DNA of 55,695 nucleotides from Planctomycetaceae bacterium (GTDB taxonomy: Bacteria > Planctomycetota > Phycisphaerae > SM23-33): positions 1 through 55,695 of the forward strand of contig JBDKTA010000070.1 in the NCBI GenBank assembly GCA_039680605.1, given 5' to 3'. The translations under genes were made by a program, and so were the position numbers. The notes beneath the pieces are model-generated. The model did not search any database. It saw only the letters and a program-made list of their open reading frames with translations, and had not been told where the DNA came from. Positions within the stretch are counted from its first letter, which is position 1. Each line of letters opens with the position of its first letter. Positions 25,810-55,695 of this stretch are shown here, in pieces.

Positions 25810-26295
25810 CTAAAAGACCACCAAATTGAGCGTGAACCGCGCGCCCATGTAACCGACGCCGCCATAGTCGAATATCACCCGCTGCCACGACCAACGGAAG
25901 GAGCGGATCGGCCCTTTCGTCGCCCCGGCCACGGTCAGGCCGAACAGCGGGCAATCCAGCGTCTCCAGAATGTCCTCGATCTGGTCAATCGCCGTCACCA
26001 GCCGGGCCATGTCCTCGCCGATGTTTGACCGCTGATTGGCGTACACGTCGGCCAGAATCGTGTATTCCTTCTGGCGGTGCTTGACGTTGCCCGTCGCCAG
26101 GTCGGTGAATGCCGTCCGGTCGGTTGCCTGGCCCCGGTCGGTGCCGGTGTTGGCATCGGGATAGACTTGCAGCATCGGCGTATCATGGATGCCCTCTGTC
26201 AACTCGTCAAAGGTCTGCGAGCGAACCAGGCTGGCCGCCGCGCTCAGTGTCGTCTCTACCGCGTCAACGATCTGATGGACTGTTACCGTTGCCAT
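25810..26295 (-). CDS. Putative tail terminator/neck protein
   Basis: 161 residues (VHQIVDAVETTLSAAASLVR ... QKEYTILADVYANQRSNIGEDMARLVTAIDQIEDIL), the pattern of gpU-like or tail-completion proteins. It starts in TAATG overlap with the connector gene. It would cap the tube and join it to the neck. Confidence 0.6.
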   Translation of the reverse strand: MATVTVHQIVDAVETTLSAAASLVRSQTFDELTEGIHDTPMLQVYPDANTGTDRGQATDRTAFTDLATGNVKHRQKEYTILADVYANQRSNIGEDMARLVTAIDQIEDILETLDCPLFGLTVAGATKGPIRSFRWSWQRVIFDYGGVGYMGARFTLNLVVF

Positions 26296-26924
26296 TATCG
26301 CCGCCCCACCGACGGCCGGATCAGCCGCCCTTCGATCAGGATTAGTTTGACCTCGGGGTCCATCGCCGCCCGGTATAGCAGCATCCCCAGCTCGCCGCTT
26401 GCCAGCACGTCAGACCACGCCGATTGCCCGCGCTTGTAGGCTCTGGCCGCAAGGACAATGGTTGCTTCGCGGACCATAGCCGGCACGGTGACGGCGTTGC
26501 CCCACTTGGCGGTCACTTCGACATTGGGGTAGCCGCCGGCATAGTACCAGGTCGAATAATCGCCGTTTTCGTCCATCCGCAGGGCGGTGTAGGGCGTGAC
26601 GTTGTACTCGGGCCGCCGCCTGTCGCCGGTCGCTTTGAGATAGTCGGCCGCGGCCAGTGTGGCATAGGTGTCGGTCGCCGATGTCTTGAGCCGGACCTGT
26701 GTCACCTCTACACACTCATCGATCCGCTGCCACTCCGAGCCACTTCCGGGGTAGATGCGCGCCGAGGCGATGGTATCGGCGACAAAGCCGTCAGGCCGCT
26801 GGCATACGGCGTCTATCACCTCTGAGGCGGCGTCGATGATGAATTGGATCGCGGGATCGTCCAGGGTTGACGTTTTGTCTATCGCCGCCCTGAATGTTGC
26901 AACATCGACATAGCTACTTGACAT
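26295..26924 (-). CDS. Head-tail connector (gp6-like)
   Basis: 209 residues opening SSSYVDVATFRAAIDKTSTLDDPAIQFIIDAASEVIDAVCQR, the helical start of phage gp6/gp15-type adaptor proteins, then a beta region. GGAG (26939-26936) fits ATG 26924. It is split from the upstream structural genes by the inserted endonuclease gene at 26969. Confidence 0.72.
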   Translation of the reverse strand: MSSSYVDVATFRAAIDKTSTLDDPAIQFIIDAASEVIDAVCQRPDGFVADTIASARIYPGSGSEWQRIDECVEVTQVRLKTSATDTYATLAAADYLKATGDRRRPEYNVTPYTALRMDENGDYSTWYYAGGYPNVEVTAKWGNAVTVPAMVREATIVLAARAYKRGQSAWSDVLASGELGMLLYRAAMDPEVKLILIEGRLIRPSVGRR

Positions 26925-26950
26925 TACACACTCTCCGTGTTGTACTGCCA
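26922..26950 (+). promoter_or_regulatory. Weak candidate promoter of endonuclease gene 3
   Basis: TTGACA (26922-26927), 17 bases, TGTACT (26945-26950, 4 of 6 matches). It overlaps the start of the connector gene on the other strand. The predicted start (about 26957) would fall in the AGGAG ribosome site, leaving almost no leader, so this promoter is doubtful. Confidence 0.4.
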
Positions 26951-26968
26951 ATCTATAGGAGAACTAAC

Positions 26969-27916
26969 ATGAGCCGCACCGCGACGACAGCTATTTGTGA
27001 ATATTGCCATCAGCCATACAGTCTTCCCCAATGCAAGGTTGGCAAGCAACGATATTGCTCCCAGTCTTGCCGTGCCAAAGGGAGCCCCCCTCCCGGTATC
27101 CCCCAACCTAAAGAGAAGATTGCCAAGACTTGCCAATATTGCGGCAAGGAGTTTTTTGTCCATCAATACCGCGCTGATACAGCTAAGTATTGCAGCCGTT
27201 CGTGTCAACGGAGATCGCATCCGACGTACAACAGGACCCCGGATGCCATTCGCGCCGAGATTATTATTGCATATCGGGCGGGCGCTAATTCCCCGCAACT
27301 TGCGACTCAATACAATTGCGCGATAACCACAGTGTGCCAGATATTGAAACAGGCAGGCGTGAAATGCAGGCCCCAGATGGGAGGCTCTCTCCATACGCCA
27401 AAGGCCCGTGAAAGACAGCGACAGAACATGCCACGCGGCAAGGATCATCCCAACCACAAGGAGGTGCCAATTGGGGAGATTGTCACCAAATATTTGGCGG
27501 GAGTATCTACCCCCAAGATAGCCAGTGATTACGGCGTATCCGCCATATTTGTGGCGCGCAGGCTGGAAGCTGCCGGCATAGAACGCAGGCGCCCCGGCTA
27601 TCCCCATTGGTGTACCTGTCAAGATGGGCACGTTGCCCAATCCCACCTTGAACAAGCCATTGATGATTGGCTTTCCGGTTGCGGCATTGCCCATGAACTG
27701 CATCCCCTGTGCCCCTGGCCCGGCAAGAATCGCGCTGATTTCCTGGTCAATGGCACGTACATTGAAGTCTGGGGCCTGGAAGGCAATAAGCGTTATGATG
27801 CCAACCGCCTCAAGAAACTTGCAAAGTATCGAGAACACAACGCGCCGCTGATTCAAATCTTTCCTCATCATATTCTTGACGGTGATCTATCAACCGTCCT
27901 ACAGACTCTCCTATAA
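26969..27916 (+). CDS. Zinc-finger/Vsr-type homing endonuclease 3
   Basis: 315 residues: two treble-clef zinc fingers (CEYCHQPYS ... CSQSC and CQYCGKEFF ... CSRSC), a helix-turn-helix region with repeats (QLATQYNCAITTVCQIL; KIASDYGVSAIFVARRL), and a C-terminal Vsr-like nuclease (SHLEQAIDDWLSG ... NRADFLVNGTYIEVWG). The E-D-x-E set fits the EDxHD/PD-(D/E)XK homing type. It lies on the plus strand inside the leftward late operon, as a mobile insertion would. AGGAG lies 8 bases before ATG 26969. Confidence 0.8.
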   Translation: MSRTATTAICEYCHQPYSLPQCKVGKQRYCSQSCRAKGSPPPGIPQPKEKIAKTCQYCGKEFFVHQYRADTAKYCSRSCQRRSHPTYNRTPDAIRAEIIIAYRAGANSPQLATQYNCAITTVCQILKQAGVKCRPQMGGSLHTPKARERQRQNMPRGKDHPNHKEVPIGEIVTKYLAGVSTPKIASDYGVSAIFVARRLEAAGIERRRPGYPHWCTCQDGHVAQSHLEQAIDDWLSGCGIAHELHPLCPWPGKNRADFLVNGTYIEVWGLEGNKRYDANRLKKLAKYREHNAPLIQIFPHHILDGDLSTVLQTLL

Positions 27917-27984
27917 ACAAAAATGCCGCCTCCCGGCAGGCTCTAGGCTCTGCCAGTTGGCGGCGTTCCTCTCGGACTGCCGTT
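27917..27984 (-). terminator. Hairpin-terminator module 1 (shared with 47141-47204)
   Basis: Leftward RNA: AACGGCAGTCC-GAGA-GGAACGCC (27984-27962) forms a stem with a 2x2 inner loop. It is followed by GCCGCC...CTGGCAG...CTGCC...GGCGGC (27964-27925) and ATTTTTGTTT, an intrinsic terminator. The first stem's 3' arm shares three bases with the terminator's 5' arm. Identical 11- and 8-base blocks with a 4-base gap occur at 47204-47182. It follows the stop of the gene at 27993. Confidence 0.72.
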
Positions 27985-29027: not shown

Positions 29028-29031
29028 GGCT

Positions 29032-29304: not shown

Positions 29305-29314
29305 TCGTTACCTC

Positions 29315-30681: not shown

Positions 30682-30687
30682 GCTCAC

Positions 30688-30722: not shown

Positions 30723-30723
30723 G

Positions 30724-33313: not shown

Positions 33314-33918
33314 GTCACCACCACCAACCGCGACTTGTCGCCTTCGCCCGGTCCCGGGTCTTGCACGTAGTTGGTCACGGCAAGCTCTTGGAATTGCCAC
33401 GGTGTCACGGTCAGCACCGAGCGCAGGCTGTAGTTTGCCAGCCACGCCGTTACCCTGTCTGGCAGGCTCTCTTCGCCATTATGCAGCCCGGCGTCTTTCC
33501 AGCCCCGGTAGGTGTTGAGCATCATGGTCACGGCGAGGCAATCGGGCGGCGGGCTGTCAACCAGCGCCTGCAATGCCACGCGGTACAATTCGACGCCGGT
33601 TGCTTTCGCCTCTGCTTGGCCGGGAATGTCCAGGCTCAGATCGACGCCATAGCAGGGCACGTCCAGCGCATCCTTGAGCGCCTTGAGCACCAGCGCGTCA
33701 CCGCAGCAAATGTCCAGTACGTTGACCGGCTTGACCTCTCGCAGCGCCTTGATGATCCGCGCCGGCCTTGACGCCGGGTTGCTGACATCGCGGTCGCCGG
33801 CCCCCACCCGCTCGCGGATGCGGCCCTGGATATTCAGCAGCGGCGTGCTGGGCCATAGCAGCAGATCGGCGTCTAGTTCTGCCGTCTTGCGCTCCAAGTC
33901 CTCAAGCCAGTGTTTCAT
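33304..33918 (-). CDS. SAM-dependent methyltransferase
   Basis: 204 residues with the class I motif VNVLDICCGDALVLKAL (about 65-81) and CYGVDLSLDI (motif II). Later motifs (CLAVTMMLNTYRGW) fit a small-molecule methyltransferase. ATGA overlap with the asparagine-synthetase-like gene. Substrate presumed a sugar, from the context. Confidence 0.7.
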   Translation of the reverse strand: MKHWLEDLERKTAELDADLLLWPSTPLLNIQGRIRERVGAGDRDVSNPASRPARIIKALREVKPVNVLDICCGDALVLKALKDALDVPCYGVDLSLDIPGQAEAKATGVELYRVALQALVDSPPPDCLAVTMMLNTYRGWKDAGLHNGEESLPDRVTAWLANYSLRSVLTVTPWQFQELAVTNYVQDPGPGEGDKSRLVVVTWG

Positions 33919-35084
33919 TTGAGCGTGTACCCATCCTTTCGCAAGGCTTCGCAGTAACAGGCCGCCGTCCAGTGTGACCACCACTCCGACCGCTCAAGGT
34001 GCCCCGCGCCGCTTGACCACATGGCCTTCGTCGCCGGCACAGCTTCGGGCGCGCAGTTCTGGCCGTACCATGATTCGTGGTACTGGCACAGCATCCGGGT
34101 CACGATCTCGGGCGGGAACAGCGGCCATTCGTCGGCAAGCCGCGGGAACGCCGCCAGCATCGGATCAAGCCAGGCGCACATCCGCTGCCGCAGGTCAAAC
34201 GCCTCCCTGACCGACGATTCGACCGCGACGCGCAGCACGTCGTAACTCAGCCAGGGCAACACCTCACCGGGCAGGCTTGGCGGGATGCTGGTTGCCACGC
34301 CATAATGCTTGACGGCCCACCTGTGCAGCCGGTTCTTGCCCGCGCCCATAAGCCAGTAGTCAGATCCAAACCCGCTCACCGCTTGCAGATCGGGCAGGCT
34401 CATTTCCGCGCCGCTGCCAATGAGCGACGATGAGCCATAGCCGCTGATGGACTGCCAGCGGTCGCGGTTCTTGGGCAGACATAGCGCCTTTTGGAAAGCG
34501 TGTAGCAGCCAGAAGCGCGATACTGGAATGGTCGGGTGCGCGCCGTTCAGGTATTGGCCGCAGCCGATGTCCAGAATGGGCCAGAGCCACAGCGCCGGGT
34601 CTTTGACGGTCACGATCTGCTCTTCGGCCCAGCCCTCGAATAGCATAATCTGACGGGCGATCTGCGCTTCCGGCCCAAACGAAAAGCAGACGACCGGATC
34701 GGTATAATGCTGGCGGTCTATCACCCGCTTGAGCGCCATGCCCATGATGCGACTGTCCCAGCCGGACGAATGCAGCAGAACATGCACCTTGCCGGGCAGC
34801 CACGACTCTTCCAGGTGGTAGCAAATGGCGTCAAACAGGCGGCCAAAGAACTGTGCTTCTGTCTCTTGCCGGGTCGCCGGCGGCAGGGCAAACAGCGCCA
34901 ATTCATCGGTGTTGGCCCGGTATGGCGCGATGCCCACGTCGATAAAGACGGTGTTTGGCCCTTCGCTGTAAACCGGCTGGACAAAGTTCTTGCGCACCCT
35001 CGCGGTCTTGGGCAGCACGTCGCGGATTAGGTGCGATTGCTTGCCGCCACACTCAAAGACACGGCCCCGGTTGAATTGTCTCAT
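33915..35084 (-). CDS. Asparagine-synthetase-like PP-loop protein
   Basis: 389 residues. VHVLLHSSGWDSRIMGMAL (about 101-119) resembles the PP-loop SGGxDS of asparagine synthetase and related amidotransferases; the second Gly is replaced by Trp. VCFSFGPEAQIARQI and ISGYGSSSLIG fit the later nucleotide and substrate regions of that fold. No N-terminal glutaminase Cys is present. In glycan clusters such proteins amidate uronic acids. ATGA overlap places ATG at 35084. Confidence 0.65.
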   Translation of the reverse strand: MRQFNRGRVFECGGKQSHLIRDVLPKTARVRKNFVQPVYSEGPNTVFIDVGIAPYRANTDELALFALPPATRQETEAQFFGRLFDAICYHLEESWLPGKVHVLLHSSGWDSRIMGMALKRVIDRQHYTDPVVCFSFGPEAQIARQIMLFEGWAEEQIVTVKDPALWLWPILDIGCGQYLNGAHPTIPVSRFWLLHAFQKALCLPKNRDRWQSISGYGSSSLIGSGAEMSLPDLQAVSGFGSDYWLMGAGKNRLHRWAVKHYGVATSIPPSLPGEVLPWLSYDVLRVAVESSVREAFDLRQRMCAWLDPMLAAFPRLADEWPLFPPEIVTRMLCQYHESWYGQNCAPEAVPATKAMWSSGAGHLERSEWWSHWTAACYCEALRKDGYTLK

Positions 35085-36070
35085 GTGTACGCCCATTGCT
35101 CACCAACCTTCCTTCTCAGGTGCGGAAAACAATCGCACAGTATCCCACGCAATTCCCACGACCGCCGCTCCCAGGTGTGGCAGGCGAGGGTGTAGGCTTT
35201 GGCATTGGCCGCTATCGGCTCCCAAAAGCCATGCCCGATCAAGTCGTCAAGCGCGATCTCTACGCCCTCCATCTCTTTGTCGCTGAAAGGCCCTCGCGGC
35301 TTGCCGTCCAAGACATAACTGTCTGCCGGCTTGTCGAATGTCAGGTAATGGACGCCGGGCATCCAACACTCGCCGATAACCGGCGGCATGGGGTTAGACA
35401 GGAACGCCGCGCCCGCCGCCGCACAGTCGAATATCCGCGCCGGTCGCGTGTTGGCCGTGCGGTTCAGGTGAACGACAACCTTTGTCCTTGCCAACAGGCT
35501 GGCGTATTCCTGATTCACGCTTTGCCCGCCGGTGTGCCAGTACACCCAGCCGCGCTTTTTGCAGTAGCCCTCAAGCCACGCGCTGAAAGCGGGCCGGGCC
35601 GGTGAGTGCTGCCACACACAGTAGAACCCCACGTCAATGTCACGTCTCAGCCCCCGATCCCGGTAGTACCGCTCGTTGACGGCGTAGGGGAGCTGCCTTA
35701 CCTGGAAATCGGAGCTGTACCAGTTCTCAGGCTTGTCATGGTCTAACAGCACGAGATCGGCCAGCCGTTCAGCAATGCGCCGCTTCGTTTCGTGGATCGA
35801 CTCGCCCAACGTAGGCCACAGCACGCGGTAGACGACCGGGCTGATCCGGTTGCCCTTGTGCGGCTCGATTGACGGTGCGGAATATTTGCCGTCGTCAAGC
35901 CAGATCGCGTCTACGTCTTTCCAGGCTTTCACGTCCAGGCAAAAGTCACGCTCTACGTCGTGATGCTCCCAGGTCAGGCCCGGCACGTCGTAGGCGAAAT
36001 GACCGTCGATGCGCGGCGCCTGGTTGTACCAATGGCCCCGGTGCAGTAGGGCGAGGTGTAGGGGGATCAT
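35081..36070 (-). CDS. GT-B-type glycosyltransferase (CgeB-like)
   Basis: 329 residues. The C-terminal half (YASLLARTKVVVHLNRTANTRPARIFDCAAAGAAFLSNPMP ... GVHYLTFDKPADS) is the NDP-sugar domain of family-1/CgeB-like transferases. The N-terminal half has WEHHDVERDFCLD and VDAIWLDDGKY. Starts 1 base before the stop of the membrane peptide at 36072. Transfers a sugar to an unknown acceptor. Confidence 0.75.
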   Translation of the reverse strand: MIPLHLALLHRGHWYNQAPRIDGHFAYDVPGLTWEHHDVERDFCLDVKAWKDVDAIWLDDGKYSAPSIEPHKGNRISPVVYRVLWPTLGESIHETKRRIAERLADLVLLDHDKPENWYSSDFQVRQLPYAVNERYYRDRGLRRDIDVGFYCVWQHSPARPAFSAWLEGYCKKRGWVYWHTGGQSVNQEYASLLARTKVVVHLNRTANTRPARIFDCAAAGAAFLSNPMPPVIGECWMPGVHYLTFDKPADSYVLDGKPRGPFSDKEMEGVEIALDDLIGHGFWEPIAANAKAYTLACHTWERRSWELRGILCDCFPHLRRKVGEQWAYT

Positions 36071-36071
36071 A

Positions 36072-36209
36072 CTAAAACGCCCACCACGGCAACCCAGCCC
36101 GATACAGCAACCAACGGGCGCCAATGCCGACCGCGATGCCAAGCGCGATGATAAGCAGGCATATGACAAAGACGACCGGTTTACTCTGTCTCTCTATCCA
36201 GTTAAACAT
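36072..36209 (-). CDS. Small single-span membrane protein
   Basis: 45 residues: NWIERQSK then a hydrophobic helix (VVFVICLLIIALGIAVGIGA, about 12-31) and RWLLYRAGLPWWAF. It overlaps the upstream gene by 16 bases and the next start by none. It could anchor glycan enzymes to the membrane. Confidence 0.6.
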   Translation of the reverse strand: MFNWIERQSKPVVFVICLLIIALGIAVGIGARWLLYRAGLPWWAF

Positions 36210-36979
36210 CCCACCATCTCCAATTCTGCCAGCACTTGCCGGCTCACAAATCCGCTCGTGTCCAGGTCAAACGGCAGCGGGCGGTCACTCCGGTGCTTGC
36301 GGCTGTACTTGTCGGTGAAGTACTTTTTCCAGTCAGACCAGACGAACTCTGCCCGCCGCTTGGGCACGAGGTCATGGTAGCAGCGGATAAAATTCATGCG
36401 CCTGGCGTAATCTGACAGCGGCAATTCCAGCGGCAAGTCGATCACGGCTACACTGTCCATCTCGGGCCAATGCCCGGCGATCCACGGCGTCGGCTTGCCG
36501 TCGTAGGTGATGCCGTCCAGGCCGAATTGTACGTCAGAATCAGCCCGCAGGATGTAGGGCCACATCTTGTCGGCGTGAAACACCACGCCGCTTAGACTAT
36601 CGCAGCGGTGGACATAGCCCAGGCCGTCGACCGGCTGGCGCAGGTAGGCCGCCGCGTCGGGCGTGACGTAGCAGTTGCAGAACATAAAGACGATTTGATC
36701 CGCGCCGCCATGCCGGGCCTCGTGCCAGCCGACATCGGTACTCGTGGCGACCATCTGTGGTACGTAGTAGGATTGGCCGCCAATCTCCGGAAACCACGTC
36801 CGGCGGTCGCTGATAAGGTGCGCATTGTCGGGCAGCCAATCGAACCACCCAGCGTCCTTGCGCGTGGTCAGCGGCAGGTACACGGCGTCAAACTCAGCAC
36901 AGATGCGCTCAAGGCACAGGCGCAGGGTGGCGCGGTAGCCGTCCACGAAACCGACCGGCACAACGGCGGCGGTTATCAT
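36194..36979 (-). CDS. Putative glycosyltransferase-like protein
   Basis: 261 residues. The start (TAAVVPVGFVDGYRATLRLCLERICAEFD) and DQIVFMFCNCYVTPDAAAYL recall GT-A folds, and RADSDVQFGLDG supplies acidic residues, but no clear DxD is present. Surrounded by glycan genes. Could also be a hydrolase. Starts at ATGA overlap. Confidence 0.5.
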   Translation of the reverse strand: MITAAVVPVGFVDGYRATLRLCLERICAEFDAVYLPLTTRKDAGWFDWLPDNAHLISDRRTWFPEIGGQSYYVPQMVATSTDVGWHEARHGGADQIVFMFCNCYVTPDAAAYLRQPVDGLGYVHRCDSLSGVVFHADKMWPYILRADSDVQFGLDGITYDGKPTPWIAGHWPEMDSVAVIDLPLELPLSDYARRMNFIRCYHDLVPKRRAEFVWSDWKKYFTDKYSRKHRSDRPLPFDLDTSGFVSRQVLAELEMVGCLTG

Positions 36980-37191
36980 CCTTGGGCCTCTTTACTGAGC
37001 ACCCTCATTTCTTCAATGACGGCCTCTAGATCGTCGATGGTAAATTCACCGTCCAGAACGGCAATTCCTCCTGGCTGAAATCCGAAATAATCTATATTCG
37101 GCCTTTTGGCCTGGAGGCGCTGAATAGCCGCCGCCTCGATTCTGTCCCAGTCTTTAGTCTCTTGCGAGCGCAGATCAAGGACCTCCATCAT
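36976..37191 (-). CDS. Small protein between acyltransferase and glycosyltransferase genes
   Basis: 71 residues, helical and acidic (DWDRIEAAAIQRLQAKRP ... TIDDLEAVIEEMRVLSKEAQG). ATGA overlaps at both ends show it is translated with its neighbours. No function recognised. Confidence 0.55.
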   Translation of the reverse strand: MMEVLDLRSQETKDWDRIEAAAIQRLQAKRPNIDYFGFQPGGIAVLDGEFTIDDLEAVIEEMRVLSKEAQG

Positions 37192-37751
37192 TTGATTCCC
37201 TTCCTTTCGTTCTCTTCCTGCCACGCCAGAAACTCACGCTCTAGCACCTCGATCTCTTTGCGCGGCCTGTCCCGGTGTGGCCTGGCCGGCGTGCCATAAC
37301 ACAGCGTCCAGGGCGGCAGGTCTTTGGTCACGAGCGACATAGCGCCCACTGCTACCCCGTCGCCGATGGTCACGCCGGGCAAGACAACCGTGCCCGCGCC
37401 GATCACTGTTTGGCGTCCGATGCGCACAAACGAGCGGATCGGCCTGCGAAACGGCGGCATGATGGCCGGGCCTAGCAGCGTGACGCCGGTGTAATCATCC
37501 GAGCCGGTCAGGATCTGCGCGCCCATCGCTATCCCTGAGAATGGGCCGATCTCGCACACCCCGCCGCCCATAATCAGCGCCTGGACGGCAATGTGAACGT
37601 AATCGCCCAGTGTCACACCCTGCCCGCCGTGGATGAACGTAAAGTCGTCGATGATGCAGTGGTCGCCGATGCTCACCATCTCCGGGTAGACGATGCGCGC
37701 CAGCGGGTAGATGATCGTGTTTTCGCCGTGGTGTCTCAGACCTGGAACCAT
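37188..37751 (-). CDS. Hexapeptide (left-handed beta-helix) acyltransferase
   Basis: 187 residues. Repeated hexads (IIDDFTFIHGGQGVTLGDYVHIAVQALIMGG, then VRIGRQTVIGAGTVVLPGVTIGDGVAVGAMSLV) and the end TLCYGTPARP are the WbbJ/NeuD-type O- or N-acetyltransferase pattern. Such enzymes commonly pair with DegT aminotransferases to acylate amino sugars, as in Fuc3NAc pathways. The aminotransferase is at 31587 in the same block. Confidence 0.9.
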   Translation of the reverse strand: MVPGLRHHGENTIIYPLARIVYPEMVSIGDHCIIDDFTFIHGGQGVTLGDYVHIAVQALIMGGGVCEIGPFSGIAMGAQILTGSDDYTGVTLLGPAIMPPFRRPIRSFVRIGRQTVIGAGTVVLPGVTIGDGVAVGAMSLVTKDLPPWTLCYGTPARPHRDRPRKEIEVLEREFLAWQEENERKGIK

Positions 37752-38317
37752 ATCGCCGTCCCGTCCATTTCGTTGATCTTGACGTTCAATTCGTCAACCG
37801 CGGCCCTGCAGCCGGGCCAGTGGTGGTAGTCGTCTACGATGACCAGGCCGCCCTTCGACATAACGGGCAAGAACCGCTCTAGACATGCCCTGGTGGGCGC
37901 ATACCAATCTACGTCGATATGCAGCAGTGCGACCTTGACTACCACGACATTTGCCAGCGTTGTTAGCACGTCGCCGCCGATGATCCGCACCCTGTCAGGC
38001 GATACCTCTAGCTTGTCAAGAACGGCGGTCACGTCTTGCAATGATGCCCGGCACCAGTCGGGCGTCCACTTGGACGCGGCCCTTTCACCGTCGATCTTGT
38101 CCGGCTTGGGCATCCCGATAAAGCGGTCGAATAGCCACAGATCGCGCATTGTTGCCCACGACAGCAGCGCCCCCGAGCCGCCGCGATAGACGCCACACTG
38201 GACGATACAGCCGGGCGGCAGGCGACGGCGGCACAAGGCCAGCATCATCTTGAGCCGGTCAGGCGGGATGCACGAGTAGAGCGCGGCGGTGATAATGGCA
38301 TCGTCGTCTTGGATCAT
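37736..38317 (-). CDS. TylF/MycF-type O-methyltransferase
   Basis: 193 residues: IVQCGVYRGGSGALL (SAM motif, about 38-52), DLWLFDRFIGMPKP, and LLHIDVDWYAPTRACLERF and LVIVDDYHHWPGC, the metal-site Asp residues of TylF macrocin O-methyltransferases. These methylate sugar hydroxyls. ATGA overlap with the next methyltransferase gene. Confidence 0.85.
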   Translation of the reverse strand: MIQDDDAIITAALYSCIPPDRLKMMLALCRRRLPPGCIVQCGVYRGGSGALLSWATMRDLWLFDRFIGMPKPDKIDGERAASKWTPDWCRASLQDVTAVLDKLEVSPDRVRIIGGDVLTTLANVVVVKVALLHIDVDWYAPTRACLERFLPVMSKGGLVIVDDYHHWPGCRAAVDELNVKINEMDGTAIWFQV

Positions 38318-39006
38318 GGCACACCCGGAATCCAGTTGCGGCAGGCTTCGTCGTACTTCCACGAGTAGCGCGCTTCGTCCAGGGCCGGTAGCGTTTCGCC
38401 CTGCTTGCGATACCAGCCGACGAACCCCTGGCCGGCGTCGGTGATGACCTTCACGTCAAAGTCACGGAACGCATCTTTCACCGCCGTTAAGGTCTCGTAC
38501 ACCGGCTGGCAGCCCCTCGTTGCCCGCTTGGGGCTGTAGTCGTGAAACACCATCAGCCCGCCGGCTTTGAGCCATTGCCACCAGGGCAAGTCCCAAACCA
38601 CCATGCCGTGATAGCCGTCGACGAACACGAGATCCAACAGCGGCCCGCTGTAGATTGACAGATAATCCCAGGAGCGCAGCTTGAGCGGCCTCACGTTGGG
38701 CCAATATCTGAGCGCCTGTTCGGCATACGAGAAGTGTTTGGCGCTTGGCGTCAGCGTCGTGATGTTCGCTTTGGGCGCGGCCTCCGCCATGACCGCCGCG
38801 CTGTAGCCGTAACAGGTGCCCAGCTCCAAAATGTGCGACTCGTAGCCGTCGCACTTGGCGGCAAGCACGAACAGCGCCGCCGCCTCGTGCCGGTCGATCT
38901 GGTTCTTGGTCGGCTCGATAGTAGAGCCCACAGCGTCCAGGGCGCGCTTGACCTTGCCATCTTGCAGTGTGGCCAGGATTTCGGCGGGCGTGCCGGTCAG
39001 GTTCAT
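38314..39006 (-). CDS. Class I SAM methyltransferase
   Basis: 230 residues with ILELGTCYGYSAAVMAEA (about 59-76), LLDLVFVDGYHGMVVWDLPWWQWLKAGGLMVFHDYSP (motifs IV-V). This is the catechol-type or class-24 methyltransferase fold. Third methyltransferase in the block. ATGA overlap with the structural-like gene at 39003. Confidence 0.82.
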   Translation of the reverse strand: MNLTGTPAEILATLQDGKVKRALDAVGSTIEPTKNQIDRHEAAALFVLAAKCDGYESHILELGTCYGYSAAVMAEAAPKANITTLTPSAKHFSYAEQALRYWPNVRPLKLRSWDYLSIYSGPLLDLVFVDGYHGMVVWDLPWWQWLKAGGLMVFHDYSPKRATRGCQPVYETLTAVKDAFRDFDVKVITDAGQGFVGWYRKQGETLPALDEARYSWKYDEACRNWIPGVP

Positions 39007-39542
39007 GCGTTGCTGACCGTCCTGACTTTTACCTGGATAGCCACAACCACGTTGTCAAGCGGATCGATGTTCTTGTTGTCGAATACGACGAACCGCTGTT
39101 GCCGCCGTCCCGTCGTCTCGGTGGGCAGCGGCGTAGTCAGGCAGTTGGTGTCGCGGAACGCGGTCAGATCGGCCAGGCCCGGCGCAAAGGTGTAGTAGCG
39201 GGTCAGGCTGGCCGCTTGCGTCGTGCCGGCTGTAGCCAGGACGCCAAGCAAAACGCCGTCATCCCGATAAGCCGCGATCTGAATCTGCCGGGTGCCAACC
39301 GTCGCCGTGGTGGTCACGGTCACACCGGCCCACAGCACTTGCCCCTCGTAATCATCGGGCACGATGTAGGTTTTGCGGTTCTTGACGCCTACATCGGTTG
39401 CAGCGGCAAGGTAGATTTCTTGCACCCGCCAGACCTCATTGGTCGCCACAACCTCGCCGTGGCACTCGTGGCCCACCTCCTGGTACATGGTCCGCATCCC
39501 GTCGGGGATGATTTCGTCTCGCTCTCGGTAGTAATCTGCCAT
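39003..39542 (-). CDS. Putative virion surface protein in the glycan block
   Basis: 179 residues, beta-rich: YIVPDDYEGQVLWAGVTVTTTATVGTRQIQIAAYRDDGVLLG. The wording is like phage decoration or fibre domains rather than enzymes. It may be the acceptor or part of the capsid that is glycosylated. RBS AGGAGGTTGAC precedes the ATG. The HNH4 unit is inserted directly upstream. Confidence 0.5.
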   Translation of the reverse strand: MADYYRERDEIIPDGMRTMYQEVGHECHGEVVATNEVWRVQEIYLAAATDVGVKNRKTYIVPDDYEGQVLWAGVTVTTTATVGTRQIQIAAYRDDGVLLGVLATAGTTQAASLTRYYTFAPGLADLTAFRDTNCLTTPLPTETTGRRQQRFVVFDNKNIDPLDNVVVAIQVKVRTVSNA

Positions 39543-39587
39543 TCTGTCAACCTCCTATTTCTTGCGCTGTCATAGGACAGCAGATAT

Positions 39588-39616
39588 TTGACAACGCGCC
39601 AATCCTATGATAGCAT
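39588..39616 (+). promoter_or_regulatory. Own promoter of HNH gene 4
   Basis: TTGACA (39588-39593), 17-base spacer, TAGCAT (39611-39616). The GATATTTGACAACG core (39583-39596) is identical to that of HNH1. It lies on the strand opposite to the late operon. Confidence 0.8.
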
Positions 39617-39648
39617 GTAACCCTACCAACAACTGGAGGCGCGTAACG

Positions 39649-40203
39649 ATGGAAGATGTTAGGGTATGCAAAAATCCAGATTGCCAATCTGGCGGAAAGC
39701 CGCAGCCGTTGTCTGCATTTCGCAAGAGCGGTAACAAGTATCGTGGGAAGTGTAAGGCGTGCGAGACAGAATATCAGCGCCAATACCGCACAACGGATGC
39801 GGGAAAGAAGGTATATACCGGCTGGAACAATAGCGATAAGGGCAAGGCGTCTATTCGCCGCTTCGACAAGAGCGAAAAGCGCCGCGATTCCCGCTTGCGC
39901 TATCGTACCGAATACCCAGATCGTTGGAAAGAGCAGTATCATCGTAACAATACCAGCGAACGGGCAAGAAAATACAGCAAGGAACGTCAAGCTAAAAAGG
40001 AATATCAGATCATAGTGGCCGCATCTGCCATAGTTGATGCAGCTATCCTGCGGGGCGAAATACCGACGCCAAAAAACTTGGCGTGCCTTGATTGTGGCAA
40101 GCGGGCGCGAGAATATCATCATCATAATGGCTACGATGATGCCCACGTGCTTGACGTTATTCCGCTCTGCCGTTCGTGCCATGCCCGCCGTCATGTTCGA
40201 TAG
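39649..40203 (+). CDS. HNH homing endonuclease 4
   Basis: 184 residues: an N-terminal Cys cluster (CKNPDC, CKACETEYQR), a basic middle, and a C-terminal HNH core (CLDCGKRAREYHHHNGYDDAHVLDVIPLCRSCHARRH). GGAGG (39635-39639) precedes ATG 39649. It is on the plus strand inside the minus-strand operon and overlaps the end of the glycosyltransferase at 40191 by 13 bases. The leader is short, unlike HNH1 and HNH2. Confidence 0.85.
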   Translation: MEDVRVCKNPDCQSGGKPQPLSAFRKSGNKYRGKCKACETEYQRQYRTTDAGKKVYTGWNNSDKGKASIRRFDKSEKRRDSRLRYRTEYPDRWKEQYHRNNTSERARKYSKERQAKKEYQIIVAASAIVDAAILRGEIPTPKNLACLDCGKRAREYHHHNGYDDAHVLDVIPLCRSCHARRHVR

Positions 40204-41840
40204 CCGTGCTCTTTTTCCCATTGTTCTACCACCGCCCATGCTGCCCTACTGTCTGAGCGGTCTATTACCTTACCTCTCCATCGCCTACTGGTCATGGGAA
40301 AATGTTTGAGCACCGCCGTTTTCTCTGCGTCGGGAATGCCCTCCATGCCGGCATACCTGACGATCAGGTTGTAAGGCCAATTCCCCAAGACGTACAGCTT
40401 GACCGGGTTGGCATACAGCGCCCGCAGCAGCGCCCCTTGATCGCGCTTGCCCCAGGCTTTCCATTCCTCGTGCCAGGCGTGAAAGAAGGCCGCCGTCCTG
40501 GCGTTGCGCTGGAAGGTAAAGACGCCCCCATTCAGTTGGATCAGCTCGCCACAGCCGATGGTGTTGAAGGTATGGTCGCACTCATCGGCGTTGTCTGACC
40601 GGCGCATCTCCCACGCGACGTGGTATTTGGCCGGGTTTTTGCAGATGACCATATCCCAACCGTCCATCAGGGCTTGCCACAGGAACGACGGGTCTTGCTG
40701 TAGCTCGGTGTCGCTGTCCATGTAGCCGATGTATTCCCACTCTGCCGGCGCCAGGTCATAGATCAGCGTCTTGGCGTGCCTGCCGCCAATGTCAACGTCC
40801 GGGCATTGGATGAACACATCCTCGCCCGCGTCAAGCGGCTCTGTGCCGATGACCGCGACCTCGATCCCCTTGGCGTGCTGCTTGAACGATGCAATCGCCG
40901 CTTTTGCGCACTCCCTGGACGGACCGCCATAGGCGACATAGACGACGCCGCGCCGGCCATGGCGGTCGCTCTCGATATGCTGTTCAAGGCTCATTTGGGC
41001 CAGGGCGATCTGGTGGTCGTTGGCCCACGAGTCGGCGGTATAGCCTTCGACGGCATGGCGCAGCGCCCCCCGGTCGCTGTCCGTTTTCAGCGCCTCTTTC
41101 AGCGCCCGGCACATGTCGCCGTAATCGCCGGCCTCGTAGCGGTGGACGCCGGGCATGTCGGGCAGGTCGTCAAGCATCCCGACGCCCTTGGGGATGACAA
41201 CGGGCACGCCGCAGGCCAGCGCCTCAAGCGGCGGCATGGGCACGCCTTCGACGGTGCTGGTACACAGAAACACGTCCAGGCTGTTGTACCAGGCCGGCAG
41301 CGCCTCCCATTCCAGCGTCTCGGTATCGACCGGCCAGCCCTTGCCGATGGCCTTGACGGCCCACTTGCCGGACCTGTCGCCGGCCAATTTCGCCACGAGC
41401 TTTTCGCCCTTGCGCCCGCCGGGGTGGACGTAGCCGGCAACGCCGATCACTGGCTTGTCGTTCTTGGCGCGCTCCGTAATCACGAACTGCGGGTCAATCG
41501 GCGGCTTGGGGCACAACGCGACCGGGCCATACTCTGACAACTCGGCCAGGTACTGGCGGGCAGCGGTGATGCGCATGTCCACATTATTGCAGGCCAGCTC
41601 CCACCAAAAGTGCTTCCACGGGACGTGCGTCTCGTGGTGAGTGAACCAGGCCGCGACCGGGGTCACGTGCCAATCGCTGAACTTTTCGGCAAATTCGACG
41701 TAGCAGATAAAGTAGGTGATGTCGGCTTGCCCATTCGGCGTGCGGGTGTATGTCCAGCCGGTCGTATCGGCCAGGATGCGCGCCAGCCGGTCAAGGACCG
41801 TGCCCTTGCCGATGCCAGAGTAGACGATGTTGGCGTTCAA
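40191..41840 (-). CDS. Two-domain glycosyltransferase (GT-B plus GT-A)
   Basis: 549 residues. The first 310 form a GT4-like GT-B domain (PVIGVAGYVHPGGRKGEKL, LDVFLCTSTVEGVPMPPLEALACGVPVV). The remainder is a GT-A domain with YIGYMDSDTELQQD (DSD metal motif), QLNGGVFTFQRN and RDQGALLRALYANPVKL. TTG 41840 is chosen because of GGAG seven bases ahead and the 4-base overlap with the upstream stop. Fused transferases of this kind add two sugars in sequence. Confidence 0.82.
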   Translation of the reverse strand: MNANIVYSGIGKGTVLDRLARILADTTGWTYTRTPNGQADITYFICYVEFAEKFSDWHVTPVAAWFTHHETHVPWKHFWWELACNNVDMRITAARQYLAELSEYGPVALCPKPPIDPQFVITERAKNDKPVIGVAGYVHPGGRKGEKLVAKLAGDRSGKWAVKAIGKGWPVDTETLEWEALPAWYNSLDVFLCTSTVEGVPMPPLEALACGVPVVIPKGVGMLDDLPDMPGVHRYEAGDYGDMCRALKEALKTDSDRGALRHAVEGYTADSWANDHQIALAQMSLEQHIESDRHGRRGVVYVAYGGPSRECAKAAIASFKQHAKGIEVAVIGTEPLDAGEDVFIQCPDVDIGGRHAKTLIYDLAPAEWEYIGYMDSDTELQQDPSFLWQALMDGWDMVICKNPAKYHVAWEMRRSDNADECDHTFNTIGCGELIQLNGGVFTFQRNARTAAFFHAWHEEWKAWGKRDQGALLRALYANPVKLYVLGNWPYNLIVRYAGMEGIPDAEKTAVLKHFPMTSRRWRGKVIDRSDSRAAWAVVEQWEKEHGYRT

Positions 41841-42154
41841 GATGTCGCTCCAATCGCTCGCTGATTGCGTCGGGCCTTCGCCTCTGCAAATCGCGCCTGA
41901 TAATCCTTGACCATCATGGAAATCGCATCTTCTATGCTCGCGCCAGTCCATGACCCGTCAGTCGATACCCCCATCCGCCCCATCTCTCGAAACTCTCCGA
42001 CGGTGAAAGCCCTTAATGGCGCATAATCCCGCGCCTCTGGGTGTCGCTCAAGAATCTTAAGCAGCTTTTCACGGGCAAGCTCACCCTCTGGTTTTCCGGC
42101 TTGGTCCTCCGCCAGCCTTGCGAGTGCCAGCGCCTTTCTCTTCCAGGCGTTCAT
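41837..42154 (-). CDS. Hypothetical helical protein
   Basis: 105 residues, helical (KRKALALARLAEDQAGKPEGELAREKLLKIL), ending with AEAKARRNQR. Start by ATGA overlap with the next gene. No family recognised. Confidence 0.5.
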   Translation of the reverse strand: MNAWKRKALALARLAEDQAGKPEGELAREKLLKILERHPEARDYAPLRAFTVGEFREMGRMGVSTDGSWTGASIEDAISMMVKDYQARFAEAKARRNQRAIGATS

Positions 42155-42339
42155 TTCTCCCCTTTCGTATCCTGCAACTTCTTGCATTGTTCACAAGTAA
42201 CGTTGTCTGGATCAGTGGTTGCCTGCAATGCGTATTTGCCACAGAGACAAAGAGGGTCAAATATGCCGTTAACATAATGAACCGGCCAGTCGGCATCAAA
42301 CTTGAACGCCTTGGTAGTGGTAAGGGTTATTGTCGCCAT
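42151..42339 (-). CDS. Zinc-binding mini-protein
   Basis: 62 residues with CLCG (near 33) and CEQC (near 50), one predicted zinc site. GGGGAGA precedes ATG 42339. Its end overlaps the next start. Function unknown. Confidence 0.5.
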   Translation of the reverse strand: MATITLTTTKAFKFDADWPVHYVNGIFDPLCLCGKYALQATTDPDNVTCEQCKKLQDTKGEK

Positions 42340-42349
42340 CTCTCCCCTT

Positions 42350-42979
42350 TCATGCTTTCGCCGCGCCGAATCGGTGTGTCACCAACTCGCCGCCATTGTA
42401 CGCCCGCCCGAGCAGCCACGTTCTCACCGGCTCGCGGCCCAGCGCCCGAATCAGCGCGCCTTGATCCATCGTGCCGAACCGCGCCCACTCTTCACGCCAT
42501 GCCTGAAAGAATGCGCGGGTCTGGTCTGTTTTGCGTGCGAAAAAGACGCCGCCCTGTAGCTGCAACGGCCTGGGGTTGTCCATCAGGGTCAGCTCGCGGT
42601 CAGCGTCTGAGACGTGCCACAGCAGGCGGGTTTCCTGGTTGTCGCTTGGGGTGATGACCAAATCCCAGCCATCGGCCAGGATGTCGAATCCGGCCATGAG
42701 CGGGCCGTTGACGCGGGTGTCGGCGTCGAGGTACAGAAAGCGATCCCACGGCGATAACTGGTCAACGTGCAGCTTTGCCCGCCGCGCTCCCCAGCCCTCG
42801 TCGCCGCCAAAGCGCATGATGTGATCCGCGCCTTTCATGGCCCGGGCGTCGGTGATGCACAGGACCGGCAGCCGCTTGTTGTGCCGCTTCAGGCTGGCTA
42901 TGCTTGCGGCGGCTTCGGCCTGGGCTGCCGTGCCATAGGCGATGTACACTACGCCGTGATCCACCGTATCAATCGCCAC
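42350..42979 (-). CDS. GT-A glycosyltransferase
   Basis: 209 residues: VVYIAYGTAAQAEAAASIASLKRHNKRLPVLCI, then WDRFLYLDADTRVNGPL (DxD, DAD) and LQLQGGVFFARKTDQTRAFFQAWREEW with MDQGALIRALGREPV. This matches the C-terminal domain of the enzyme at 40191. GTG 42979 is chosen; it overlaps the upstream stop. The ribosome site is weak, so the start is uncertain. Confidence 0.72.
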   Translation of the reverse strand: MAIDTVDHGVVYIAYGTAAQAEAAASIASLKRHNKRLPVLCITDARAMKGADHIMRFGGDEGWGARRAKLHVDQLSPWDRFLYLDADTRVNGPLMAGFDILADGWDLVITPSDNQETRLLWHVSDADRELTLMDNPRPLQLQGGVFFARKTDQTRAFFQAWREEWARFGTMDQGALIRALGREPVRTWLLGRAYNGGELVTHRFGAAKA

Positions 42980-43283
42980 CAGTCCTGTACTGCGCCCGGA
43001 ATGTGGGCGTGATGATCGGAGGCTCTGAATAGGGCACGATCTCGGGCCAGTCAGGGTGCTCAAATATCAGGGCGATGACTTGCCTGATATAGTCATAATA
43101 GGCAGTAATGAACCGTGTACCCTCTGGCAATCCGTTGACGCATTCCATGGCCCTATCTTTGCCAACATGCCATCCGGTTGTCAACATGCCTTGTAGCAGT
43201 TCTGGCGATACAAGTACTATCTTTCGCCGTGTAGGTTGCGATATGTCTAGTCGCCACGGGAGCATTTTCCACGTCTTGTCCAT
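42969..43283 (-). CDS. Hypothetical protein
   Basis: 104 residues (RRKIVLVSPELLQGMLTTGWHVGKDRAMECVNGLPEGTRFITAYYD). Soluble, mixed fold, no motif recognised. GAAAGGGCC precedes the ATG. Overlaps the transferase start by 11 bases. Confidence 0.5.
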   Translation of the reverse strand: MDKTWKMLPWRLDISQPTRRKIVLVSPELLQGMLTTGWHVGKDRAMECVNGLPEGTRFITAYYDYIRQVIALIFEHPDWPEIVPYSEPPIITPTFRAQYRTGGD

Positions 43284-44806: not shown

Positions 44807-46105
44807 CTAGCTGCCCGTCGCGGCGTCAAGGATGACGAACGGCGAGATTTGCGTGGTTCCGTCGCTCAACCGGAGCGGCTGGGACAGCCATTCCTGCCCG
44901 TCGACGCGATGTACCGCCCGCCAGGTGGTCAGGTCATAGCGGAACTTGTAGTGCTTCGAGGCGTCGATGGTCGTTGCCTGGCGGTCGCCGACGAGGTAGT
45001 ACCGGCAATCGGCCAGGATGATGTCGCCGCGGTTGCCCAGCAGCGGGCAGTGCTCGTTGTAGAACACCGGATAGCCGAACAGCGTGCCAGGCATACCGTC
45101 GCGGGCGTTCGGGATGAACACATAGGACGGGTTGCCGGCCGGGCCGTTCAGTTGGAGCAGGGACGGCAGCGCCGACTTGGTGATGAACCAAACCGGGTTT
45201 CCGTAGCTGTGTTCCAGCATGTTGATGATGTCGACCAGGCCGATAGCGCCCACAACGGCCCTGCCCTGGGCGAACGTACCGGGCGCGCCAATGATGCCCA
45301 TCGGTTGGCCGGCGCCGGTGCCGTTGATGAACGCCTCTTCCTCGTACCAGGAGATCGAGCCGGTGAAGAGCTGCGACAGCAGCGCCTCCAAGGATACGGC
45401 GGAATCCTCAAGCAGCTCGTCTGACGCTTCGGTCAGGCACACCAGCTTGTGGGCCACGAGGTTGATCTGGCGGAACTGCGGATCGGATTCGTCCTTGTAG
45501 GCCGCCTCTTCGGTCCAGTGGCCAAGGACGCCGCCGAACCATGCCGGGCGTCCGGCCGTGGTGTTGGTCTGGTCCAGGACGGGCCATTGAATCTGGCGCC
45601 GCCGCATCGGGACGATGGTTGCCCGCGGGCGGACCTGGAGATCGGGCGCGGGCAGCTTCAACAGCTCGGCCCGCTGCTCGACCGGGACCAGGAAGCCGCC
45701 GGACGCGCCGACGTTCTCTACCAGGTCCTTCGTTTCCTTGCTCTCCCAACCCTCTTTCATCTGGGTTGGCGGCTCGCTGTTGTCCTGAAACGAGGTCAGG
45801 CGCGGGTCGTAGCGGCCTTTGAATGAGGCCGCATGGACGCCGGTCAGCATCTCGCCGAGCGACTTCCAGGTCTTGGGACCCGGCGCGCTCTTGGTCTGGC
45901 CCATGGTCAACAGGTCTTGGCGGCTGCGCTCCAGATCGCCGATAGCGGCGGCCTTTTCGCGGAGTGCCTTGACCTCGACCACGAGGGCCAGGAATTTGGC
46001 GTTTTCCTCACCGCTCGCGTCCGTCTTGGCGGCCAGGGCTTCGGCCTCGGCCATCTTCAGACTTGCGGCGGCCAGGAGATCGGTCTGAGAAGTGCTCAGA
46101 TTCAT
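44807..46105 (-). CDS. HK97-type major capsid protein
   Basis: 432 residues. An N-terminal coiled-coil delta domain (LLAAASLKMAEAEALAAKTDASGEENAKFLALVVEVKALREKAAAI), removed by the protease in HK97-like phages, precedes the capsid fold (GGFLVPVEQRAELLKLPAPDLQVRPRATIVPM, ASDELLEDSAVSLEALL, GTGAGQPMGIIGAPGTF). ATG 46105 fits GGAGG seven bases ahead better than GTG 46111. Confidence 0.92.
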   Translation of the reverse strand: MNLSTSQTDLLAAASLKMAEAEALAAKTDASGEENAKFLALVVEVKALREKAAAIGDLERSRQDLLTMGQTKSAPGPKTWKSLGEMLTGVHAASFKGRYDPRLTSFQDNSEPPTQMKEGWESKETKDLVENVGASGGFLVPVEQRAELLKLPAPDLQVRPRATIVPMRRRQIQWPVLDQTNTTAGRPAWFGGVLGHWTEEAAYKDESDPQFRQINLVAHKLVCLTEASDELLEDSAVSLEALLSQLFTGSISWYEEEAFINGTGAGQPMGIIGAPGTFAQGRAVVGAIGLVDIINMLEHSYGNPVWFITKSALPSLLQLNGPAGNPSYVFIPNARDGMPGTLFGYPVFYNEHCPLLGNRGDIILADCRYYLVGDRQATTIDASKHYKFRYDLTTWRAVHRVDGQEWLSQPLRLSDGTTQISPFVILDAATGS

Positions 46106-46107
46106 AG

Positions 46108-47121
46108 TCACACCTCCGTTAGTTCTAGCTTCAATCGTTCGATCATCGCCTGCTTCTGCCGTGGGTGGAGGTCCGGCCCGGCGGCAGCCTTTGGCTTCTC
46201 TTCATCGCCCTCGTCGGGCGGTTCGGATTCTTCGTCGTAATCGGCCCATTTCAGGAAGGCGTCCAGCGTCGCCATTGCCGCCCGCGCCTCTTCGAGCTTT
46301 TCCTTGCGGACGCGGCGGCCGGCCTTGGCCTCTTCGGGCGGATCGGCGCTATCCAACACAACGGCATGGACCGCGCCTGTCCCGGCGGCCGGCAGCTTGC
46401 GCCGGCGTCGCTTGCGCTTCTCTTCGTCGTCGTCTTTGGTGCCCTCGGCGAACATGCCCACACACATGGCAACAGCCTGGTCTTGCTCGCGGCCCTCGTT
46501 GACCATGGCCGGGATGCAGCGGGCCATGAATGCCTCTTCGGTTTCGTCGTCGCCGGGCTTGACCTTGGCCTCGTCGGCAGCGGGCGCGGCGTCCTTGGCG
46601 GAGAGGTTAGCTGTAGCAGAATTCATACCCCAGATCACGTCACTCCACTCAAAAAGTTTCAGTTCTTTCAACTCCCTGATTGTCTTTTTCCCTTGTGCCG
46701 TGTCAACGCTTGAATACTCGGCAATGATCGGGTCGTAGCCAATCGAGGCTTCGTCAACCGCCCCCTCACGGATAAGGGTAAAGACTTCGCGCCCCGGCTG
46801 TGTGCCCAAGATGTATTGCGCCTTGACCCATAGGCCGCCAGTTGCGTCGGGATATTTCAGCAGCAGATCGGGTGGCAATTCAGCCCGGTTCAATTCGCGC
46901 ATTTCCAGCGTCTTGGCTACGACGTTGCGCACGCTCCTGCTATCGTGCTGATCGAGACCCTTTATCTTTAGGCCGCGTTCTTGGATGGTCTTGCTGAAAG
47001 CTCCATTCCAGATACGGTCATTTCCCTGGTCAATGTTGCCCATGACGGCGACGATCTTTTCAACGATGCCCTGCGCTTCGTCAATCGGCCCGATGTAGGA
47101 TGCAAATTGTTTGTGTTCCAT
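46108..47121 (-). CDS. HK97-type prohead protease with long acidic C-terminus
   Basis: 337 residues. His59 (LDQHDSR) and Ser126 (VDEASIGYDP) form the S78 peptidase catalytic pair, with GRIWNGAF-like wording before. The last 160 residues are charged and Lys/Arg/Glu-rich, possibly a scaffold. It cleaves the capsid delta domain during maturation. It is preceded by a hairpin-terminator leader (47141-47204). Confidence 0.9.
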   Translation of the reverse strand: MEHKQFASYIGPIDEAQGIVEKIVAVMGNIDQGNDRIWNGAFSKTIQERGLKIKGLDQHDSRSVRNVVAKTLEMRELNRAELPPDLLLKYPDATGGLWVKAQYILGTQPGREVFTLIREGAVDEASIGYDPIIAEYSSVDTAQGKKTIRELKELKLFEWSDVIWGMNSATANLSAKDAAPAADEAKVKPGDDETEEAFMARCIPAMVNEGREQDQAVAMCVGMFAEGTKDDDEEKRKRRRRKLPAAGTGAVHAVVLDSADPPEEAKAGRRVRKEKLEEARAAMATLDAFLKWADYDEESEPPDEGDEEKPKAAAGPDLHPRQKQAMIERLKLELTEV

Positions 47122-47128
47122 GCTTACC

Positions 47129-47204
47129 CCCTAAACGCAAAACGCCAGCCCTGGGCCGTCTTGCGACTGGCTCAAATGGCTGGCGTTCCGTGTGGACTGC
47201 CGTT
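47129..47204 (-). terminator. Hairpin-terminator module 2 in front of the protease gene
   Basis: Leftward RNA: AACGGCAGTCC-ACAC-GGAACGCC (47204-47182) forms one hairpin. AACGCCAGCC (47187-47178) pairs with GGCTGGCGTT (47150-47141), followed by TTGCGTTT, as the terminator. The two structures share AACGCC and exclude each other, as in attenuators. The module starts about 7 bases after the predicted transcription start of the promoter at 47218. Confidence 0.75.
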
Positions 47205-47217
47205 ATACGTCTAGTGT

Positions 47218-47252
47218 ATTATACTGTGCCGGGCGGTTGCCCCTTTGCCGTT
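47218..47252 (-). promoter_or_regulatory. Late repeat-type promoter, copy 2
   Basis: Minus strand: AACGGCAAAGGGGCAACCGC (47252-47233), 9 bases, TATAAT (47223-47218). The same 20-mer stands at 30703 and 54677. It encodes TAKGQPPGTV, the C-terminus of the small gene at 47219, whose stop lies in the TATAAT. It drives protease and capsid genes. Confidence 0.78.
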
Positions 47253-47362
47253 TTTCGCAGCTCCGCCGTCCGTGGCGATATGCCCAGCTCGCGCTCAAGT
47301 GCATCGACCAGCATGAGCAGCGCCTGGCGCACGGCAACCCAGAACTCGCGGCCTGGGGTCAT
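47219..47362 (-). CDS. Small protein ending in the late-promoter repeat
   Basis: 47 residues (PGREFWVAVRQALLMLVDALERELG ...). Its last residues TAKGQPPGTV are encoded by the repeated promoter element; the gene at 54663 ends the same way (TAKGQPPNVP). Start in ATGA overlap. Function unknown. Confidence 0.55.
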   Translation of the reverse strand: MTPGREFWVAVRQALLMLVDALERELGISPRTAELRKTAKGQPPGTV

Positions 47363-55568: not shown

Positions 55569-55695
55569 AACAAAAAGCGCCGCCGTGCCAACGCACGACA
55601 GCGCCTATGCGGTTTGTCAAGCCCCCTTGTGCCTTTTGCACACATAATTCCCATGCCTAGAGTATAGCATACCGCCGGCCCGCTGTCAATAGGTT
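55569..55695. repeat. Right copy of the 127-bp terminal direct repeat
   Basis: Identical to 1-127. It contains the late promoter core (55661-55689) and the leader terminator (55572-55604) in genuine position relative to the first late gene at 55542. Confidence 0.93.

Follow-up and report, generated by a model that had tools for sequence, protein, structure and literature searches.

Paired hairpins and a terminator before the virion genes of an uncultivated phage and its relatives: a probable attenuator with a small phage protein as candidate switch

Two copies of a short RNA module, in which a conserved hairpin (HP1) shares an arm with an intrinsic terminator, were found in the phage genome analysed here (the window: all 55,695 nucleotides of contig JBDKTA010000070.1, assembly GCA_039680605.1), and on balance it is probable that this module is a transcription attenuator placed before virion genes and switched by a small phage-encoded RNA-binding protein. 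The reading draws on features which can be seen directly, namely the anatomy of the module, the exclusion on paper of one structure by the other, covariation, the repeat of the HP1 core in a second hairpin (HP2), the linkage of protein and RNA, and the placement before unrelated virion genes. We are evenly divided on the wider claim of an undescribed two-part phage system, in which a protein of 42-60 amino acids would alone recognise tandem hairpins in nascent RNA and antiterminate the virion genes, as a cassette spread across unrelated head genes in which protein and RNA core change together (L067, L132, L134 and L137).

The two ends of the window (1-127 and 55569-55695) are identical over 127 bases, and the contig is therefore probably a whole phage genome of ~55.6 kb, circular or circularly permuted, and not a fragment of a prophage. 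A search of the window for AACGGCAGTCC-N4-GGAACGCC, allowing up to three mismatches, returned two minus-strand copies, at 47182-47204 (copy A) and 27962-27984 (copy B), and none other, against a mean of 0.03 per window expected by shuffling; the twin copies described in the sequence-only reading are correct and beyond chance, and their loops are ACAC and GAGA as it had stated. In copy A the arm AACGCCAGCC (47178-47187) is perfectly paired with GGCTGGCGTT (47141-47150), forming a 10-bp stem followed by T's, and in copy B the partners are GCCGCC (27959-27964) and GGCGGC (27925-27930), after which comes ATTTTT. From these pairings it follows that hairpin and terminator share bases in both copies, as had been proposed, the right arm of HP1 being the left arm of the terminator. 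The attenuator anatomy is thereby recovered, with a GC-rich terminator stem and T tract lying in a leader or intergenic stretch, and the alternative hairpin that excludes the terminator is evident both in the sequence and in the covariation described below.

Copy A does precede the protease and capsid genes: HP1 starts 80 nt upstream of the protease ATG, the major capsid gene follows the protease, and the T tract is short and stands ~20 nt ahead of that ATG. The placement of copy B before connector and tail genes held in part, as the adaptor gene (26295-26951) does lie downstream but an HNH endonuclease gene on the opposite strand (26894-27916, plus strand) intervenes; the latter carries a homeodomain-like helix and sits as if inserted between the copy B module and the adaptor gene. 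A mobile repeat of the host was considered and rejected, as the 5.2 Mb assembly has no match at E 0.001 beyond the two in the window. The positions of all features are collected in Table 1.

Table 1. Features of the two module copies and their neighbouring genes in the window.
Feature	Positions	Strand	Details
Small linked protein gene, candidate RNA-binding antiterminator	47219..47362	-	47 aa from ATG 47362; family alignment
TATAAT, possible -10	47218..47223	-	16 nt before copy A HP1; overlaps small-gene stop codon; no good -35
HP1 copy A, putative antiterminator hairpin	47182..47201	-	GGC-AG-UCC-ACAC-GGA-AC-GCC
HP2 copy A, in terminator crown	47155..47171	-	GCC-A-GUC-GCAA-GAC-GGC; same core type, one bulged A
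Intrinsic terminator copy A	47139..47187	-	arms 47178-47187 and 47141-47150; T's 47139-47142; left arm common with HP1
Head maturation protease, first gene behind copy A	46108..47121	-	PHROGs phrog_80
Major capsid protein	44807..46111	-	PHROGs phrog_10
HP1 copy B	27962..27981	-	GGC-AG-UCC-GAGA-GGA-AC-GCC
HP2 copy B, crown hairpin	27933..27956	-	single bulged A
Intrinsic terminator copy B	27919..27969	-	27959-27964 with 27925-27930; T's 27919-27923; one basal C-A mismatch
HNH endonuclease gene, directly behind copy B	26894..27916	+	PHROGs phrog_1271
Head-tail adaptor (connector), next minus-strand virion gene behind copy B	26295..26951	-	PHROGs phrog_442

The conservation in relatives on which the proposal had been made to depend was found, the module recurring in 22 IMG/VR contigs. 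Homologues of the capsid gene occur at 15 viral loci, four of which (L009, L010, L012 and L020) have the module in the corresponding position. A first pattern, combining hairpin and terminator, picked out 17 viral contigs, and a second pattern with the four internal-loop letters left free also picked out 17, five of them new, giving the 22 contigs, all found by DNA pattern, that are referred to here as module-first. The true relatives were thus reached through the capsid gene and the wider patterns and not through the exact motif, whose matches in the viral contigs L001-L005 are due to chance, having no such terminator and unrelated surroundings; the protease, used as a scan query, found no viral relative. 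The pattern scan of genome_contigs produced no true match, its three matches (L051-L053) being judged chance and rejected as coding-like sequence in which the family's T tract and flanks are missing. The RNA model R1, run against 397 genomes, found G000 and a match in G241 (32.7 bits) that was likewise rejected as coding-like sequence, and no Rfam family reached its gathering score, copy A having no match up to E 10. Since R1 was built from sequences selected by pattern, the invariance of the core in the alignment of 15 modules is partly the result of selection, and the independent tests are the freed-letter scan and the protein-first scans. Several contigs are near copies (L037/L039/L049, L040/L045 and L009/L010) and others were grouped into clusters; the 15-module alignment accordingly omits L010 (near copy of L009), L039, L049 and L045.

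Across these 15 modules 96.3% of cells in the terminator stem are paired, with covariation above that of all 500 shuffles, whilst in HP1 every cell is paired and the closing pair is C-G in 12 and U-A in three. Of 39 modules in a wider set, 35 had an HP1 that could be parsed, and of these 33 have AG in the 5' side of the internal loop and 34 have AC in the 3' side; the length of the apical stem (2-5 bp), the size of the loop (3-5 nt) and the loop letters all vary, and stem pairs swap. When the core letters were freed in the search pattern, AG was still kept in 16 of 17 contigs and AC in 16 of 17. Stems and loops therefore drift with compensation and the AGU/AAC core stays. The core may be drawn as a 2x2 loop, with 96.7% of cells paired and a covariation score of 0.157, or as two staggered bulged adenines, which scores slightly better (97.1% and 0.174) and is the register favoured by L100, L069 and L120, so that AGU opposite AAC probably represents two bulged adenines; one HP1 alignment was limited to modules with a 20-nt HP1 (28 rows), leaving out L136 and others.

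The terminator crown often carries a second hairpin with the same core and other flanking letters (e.g., L093, L070, L090 and L094), and in most modules HP2 is found inside the terminator. Of 36 crowns, 19 contain the core (rows L010, L091 and L110 having been dropped from this count and from the promoter counts), compared with a mean of 3.3 and a maximum of 10 in 200 shuffles, and the parsing misses some cores visible by folding, namely in L050, L037, L085 and L067. In L067 a variant UC/AC core appears in both HP1 and the second hairpin, and L132 and L136 show, by eye, two such hairpins in succession with the terminator overlapping the second. By predicted folding energy the terminators (approximately -23 to -51 kcal/mol) are far more stable than HP1 alone (-4.5 to -11 kcal/mol; L110, which entered the parsing set by eye and not by model, is excluded), and the terminator should thus win unless something holds HP1.

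A conserved terminator or insulator and nothing more, separating transcription units and with a hairpin that serves RNA stability or processing and switches nothing, would account for the strong terminators with their T tracts and for the upstream promoters that some modules possess. We think this very unlikely, because a terminator has no need of HP1's left arm or of the AG/AC core, and yet these are the most conserved part. In L066, L068 and L070 AAC has been retained though the terminator arm no longer matches it. In L113 the outer stem differs (CGCU/GGCG) and the terminator arm changes along with it. The persistence of the HP1 left arm and core beyond the needs of the terminator, and their repetition in HP2, would be the mark of a binding site.

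A candidate for the factor that binds there is encoded next to the module. In an all-versus-all comparison of the ORFs of 20 module-bearing records, a tiny protein topped the list, occurring in 12 and level with the capsid cluster; it is 42-60 amino acids long, with the consensus xREFWMAxRQALLMxVDAIERxLxIxPRTAELRKxxK, and the window member would extend to 67 aa from an alternative upstream ATG at 47422. A profile search placed it upstream and on the same strand in 17 of the 22 module-first contigs, and full records add two more (L073 for L036 and L076 for L038), making 19 of 22. The exceptions L034 and L070 have merely 455 and 48 nt of upstream sequence, and L066, a tail-gene copy, has no small protein in the 2077 nt upstream of its module. 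Copy B resembles L066 in that no small-protein gene adjoins it, which counts against antitermination by a linked protein. Close relatives differ most often at the third position of codons (35, 21 and 60 differences at first, second and third positions in four pairs), which is the pattern of a coding gene, although the L132/L136 pair shows no third-position excess. The AlphaFold2 model has two helices, at residues 5-26 and 32-41 (mean pLDDT 86); no relative by sequence or fold was found in the PDB and no recognisable RNA-binding fold, and BFVD gave no match at E 0.001. Ten members matched no Pfam or PHROGs family at E 0.001 (best phrog_5843, E 0.0025, for L068), and no match above the Pfam cut-off appeared when Pfam was listed to E 10 for the same ten; tblastn with three small proteins found no match in named phages. 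In a search for prophage carriers the profile found G000 and one weak partial match among 298 genomes of the class, and among 392 genomes of the phylum G000 alone.

As the profile was made partly from module-bearing contigs, the reverse scan, starting from the protein only, provides an independent test. Protein-only scans of viral contigs gave 47 contigs in 33 clusters, repeats not counted, and an R1 match lies 6-791 nt behind the small gene on the same strand in 36 of the 47 contigs and 26 of the 33 clusters, or in 19 of 26 clusters when those used to build R1 are omitted. The remaining 11 contigs (seven clusters) lack an R1 match; in L110/L111 and L122 a terminator nonetheless lies directly behind the small gene, whereas no such hairpin and terminator was found within 2 kb in five of the seven clusters, or eight of the 11 contigs (L096/L097, L103, L104/L105, L109 and L114/L115). 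In L109, L114 and L115 the small gene's stop codon is followed immediately by TATAATCC, after which no terminator comes, and the switch may have been lost or be different in these phages. The small protein is also present, without an R1 match, in L011, for which there is little upstream sequence.

These eight protein-bearing contigs without a visible module are what might be expected if HP1 and HP2 acted on RNA polymerase directly, in the manner of HK022 put, or bound a host factor, with the small protein, a virion or other protein, merely co-located. The position of its gene among virion genes would agree with this, and two hairpins near a promoter do recall put as described in the accessible part of PMC9378689. 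We nevertheless regard a switch of this kind as unlikely, for the protein tracks the module across phages with differing capsids and portals, and among seven capsid-related loci with at least ~2.9 kb of upstream sequence three carry protein and module together and the other four carry neither.

An attenuator worked by the small protein would also suit the variety of genes that follow the module. PHROGs assigned proteases of phrog_80 (window, L009 and L020) and phrog_328 (L067 and L068), a portal of phrog_104 (L038), scaffolds (L042 and L070), a major tail protein (L066) and protease-capsid fusions (L043, L048 and L069), with a weak protease match in L050 and no family for the genes behind the module in L036, L037, L040, L041 and L047. 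As the downstream virion families are unrelated, the module is no operator dedicated to a single protein, and autoregulation by the downstream protein was rejected on the same ground. Attenuation by ribosome position was rejected because the distance to upstream stop codons varies widely.

An extended -10 element (TGnTAnRMT) was found within 75 nt upstream of HP1 in nine of 39 modules, eight of them ending 16-29 nt before HP1; the pattern was chosen after viewing the sequences and L132, L134 and L137 were added to the set, and the background was 96 of 9674 windows, with at most four matches in 500 shuffles. L048 has in addition TTGACA at a 17-nt spacing. A looser promoter score, reached by 16 of 36 modules, is weak alone because the reverse-strand control is also high (13 of 36), and no obvious promoter was found upstream of the copy B module. 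The presence of a -10 in some modules only suggests that some members of the family are leaders driven by a promoter of their own and that others are internal to an operon. The last 7 nt before HP1 are A/T-rich, with the consensus AATAAC/CATAAC, in 20 distinct modules (e.g., window 47202-47207, L009, L012 and L036), with or without a visible promoter, and in L020:1-303 a stretch resembling the 3' end of a tRNA is seen by eye just before the module.

That part of the family has its own promoter would also be compatible with the ~80-nt terminated RNA being itself the product, a small RNA of structural or regulatory function bound by the small protein, perhaps during head assembly or in a role akin to that of a packaging RNA; it is short, has two similar hairpins resembling protein sites and adjoins portal, protease and capsid genes. 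This we consider extremely unlikely, as the terminator ends close before the next gene start, the usual place of an attenuator (from the start of HP1 to the next start codon is usually 70-98 nt), and the window has two copies at two operon positions.

The attenuator model would operate as follows. By default the nascent RNA would fold into the long terminator and transcription would stop, at copy A ahead of the head genes and at copy B ahead of those for connector and tail. The protein of 42-60 amino acids, from the gene just upstream of copy A, would bind the conserved core of HP1 and likely also the matching HP2 in the terminator crown; with HP1 thus held shut the terminator could not form and RNA polymerase would continue. 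The small protein probably does grip the RNA and let transcription through, although its binding, the antiterminating direction of the effect and the timing are what we infer from the arrangement. It had been suggested earlier that a phage protein or host factor binding the first hairpin could turn transcription on, and the small protein beside the module is a concrete candidate for that factor. Because its gene lies upstream of the terminator it would be made regardless of the latter, and its accumulation could therefore time the expression of the virion genes; one small protein could serve both copies, reaching copy B in trans. Against the proposal count the on-signal that a terminator ahead of capsid genes would require, the protein-bearing contigs that lack the module, the absence of a recognisable RNA-binding fold in the protein and that of an obvious promoter at copy B.

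Antitermination through RNA binding is of a known kind, and the closest parallels differ in their parts. The gene for Q in lambdoid phages lies just upstream of its target, and the same gene order is seen here. Lambdoid late genes stand behind an early-acting stop that is released by a dedicated phage protein, and Q antiterminators use a DNA element and are larger proteins of PF06530, PF03589 or PF06323 (PMC7171158, accessible part). Thus both systems place a stop before late or virion genes and employ a dedicated phage protein, whereas here the conserved element is an RNA hairpin overlapping the terminator, and ten members of the small protein had no match to any of these three Pfam families. 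A DNA element bound by Q and a sigma-dependent pause at the late promoter also mark the lambdoid system; in our modules HP1 is immediately preceded by the conserved A/T-rich stretch. The put element of HK022 is an RNA of ~70 nt with two stem-loops behind a promoter which makes transcription ignore a terminator, and the accessible part of PMC9378689 describes neither a need for a dedicated protein nor an overlap with the terminator. Compared by description and not by sequence, the likeness lies in the two hairpins, with a strong promoter match in nine of 39 modules and HP2 mostly inside the terminator; unlike put, our module has a linked protein gene, HP1 shares an arm with the terminator, and it stands before virion genes rather than in early operons. 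The linkage to a protein gene argues against put-like action without a phage protein.

In the LoaP-dfn system a dedicated protein, a NusG paralogue, binds a leader RNA hairpin with a UNCG loop and promotes read-through of the leader terminator (PMC12691694, accessible part). The present case would share leader antitermination by an RNA-binding protein, whereas the loops of HP1 vary freely without consensus and Pfam gave no NusG match for ten small proteins. In RAT elements of the LicT/SacY type and in ANTAR-type systems a protein-bound hairpin excludes an overlapping terminator, and ANTAR sites use two hairpins. The same exclusion by a hairpin, here presumably protein-bound, is proposed for our module, in which by contrast the internal core is conserved and the loop is not, and the ten small proteins matched no PRD/CAT or ANTAR domain in Pfam. 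As the small proteins matched neither the Q nor the LoaP families and the RNA no Rfam family, the RNA family and the protein family are both new to the searched libraries. A literature search found neither the RNA module nor the small protein described, which is weak evidence of absence since subscription papers were little covered.

Classic late regulators have been worked out in few lineages, and to our knowledge it is not known how virion genes are switched on in most uncultivated phages. A cassette of a tiny protein and an RNA of ~80 nt would offer, for a wide range of environmental phages, an answer open to direct testing. If the proposal is true, few known factors dedicated to antitermination would be as small as this protein, and the pair of protein and RNA, compact and with variants in nature, would also lend itself to studies of recognition and to use as a genetic switch.

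Elsewhere in the window, a minus-strand block at 29000-43000 between the capsid and tail genes contains aminotransferase- and glycosyltransferase-like genes (31587-32756 and 40191-41951) amid ORFs without a family match, and is possibly cargo for surface or sugar modification. The early region, on the plus strand, includes a PAPS-reductase-like gene (6245-6979), as in phages with sulphur DNA modification or sulphur genes, and a gene for an FtsK/SpoIIIE-like ATPase (10965-12278).
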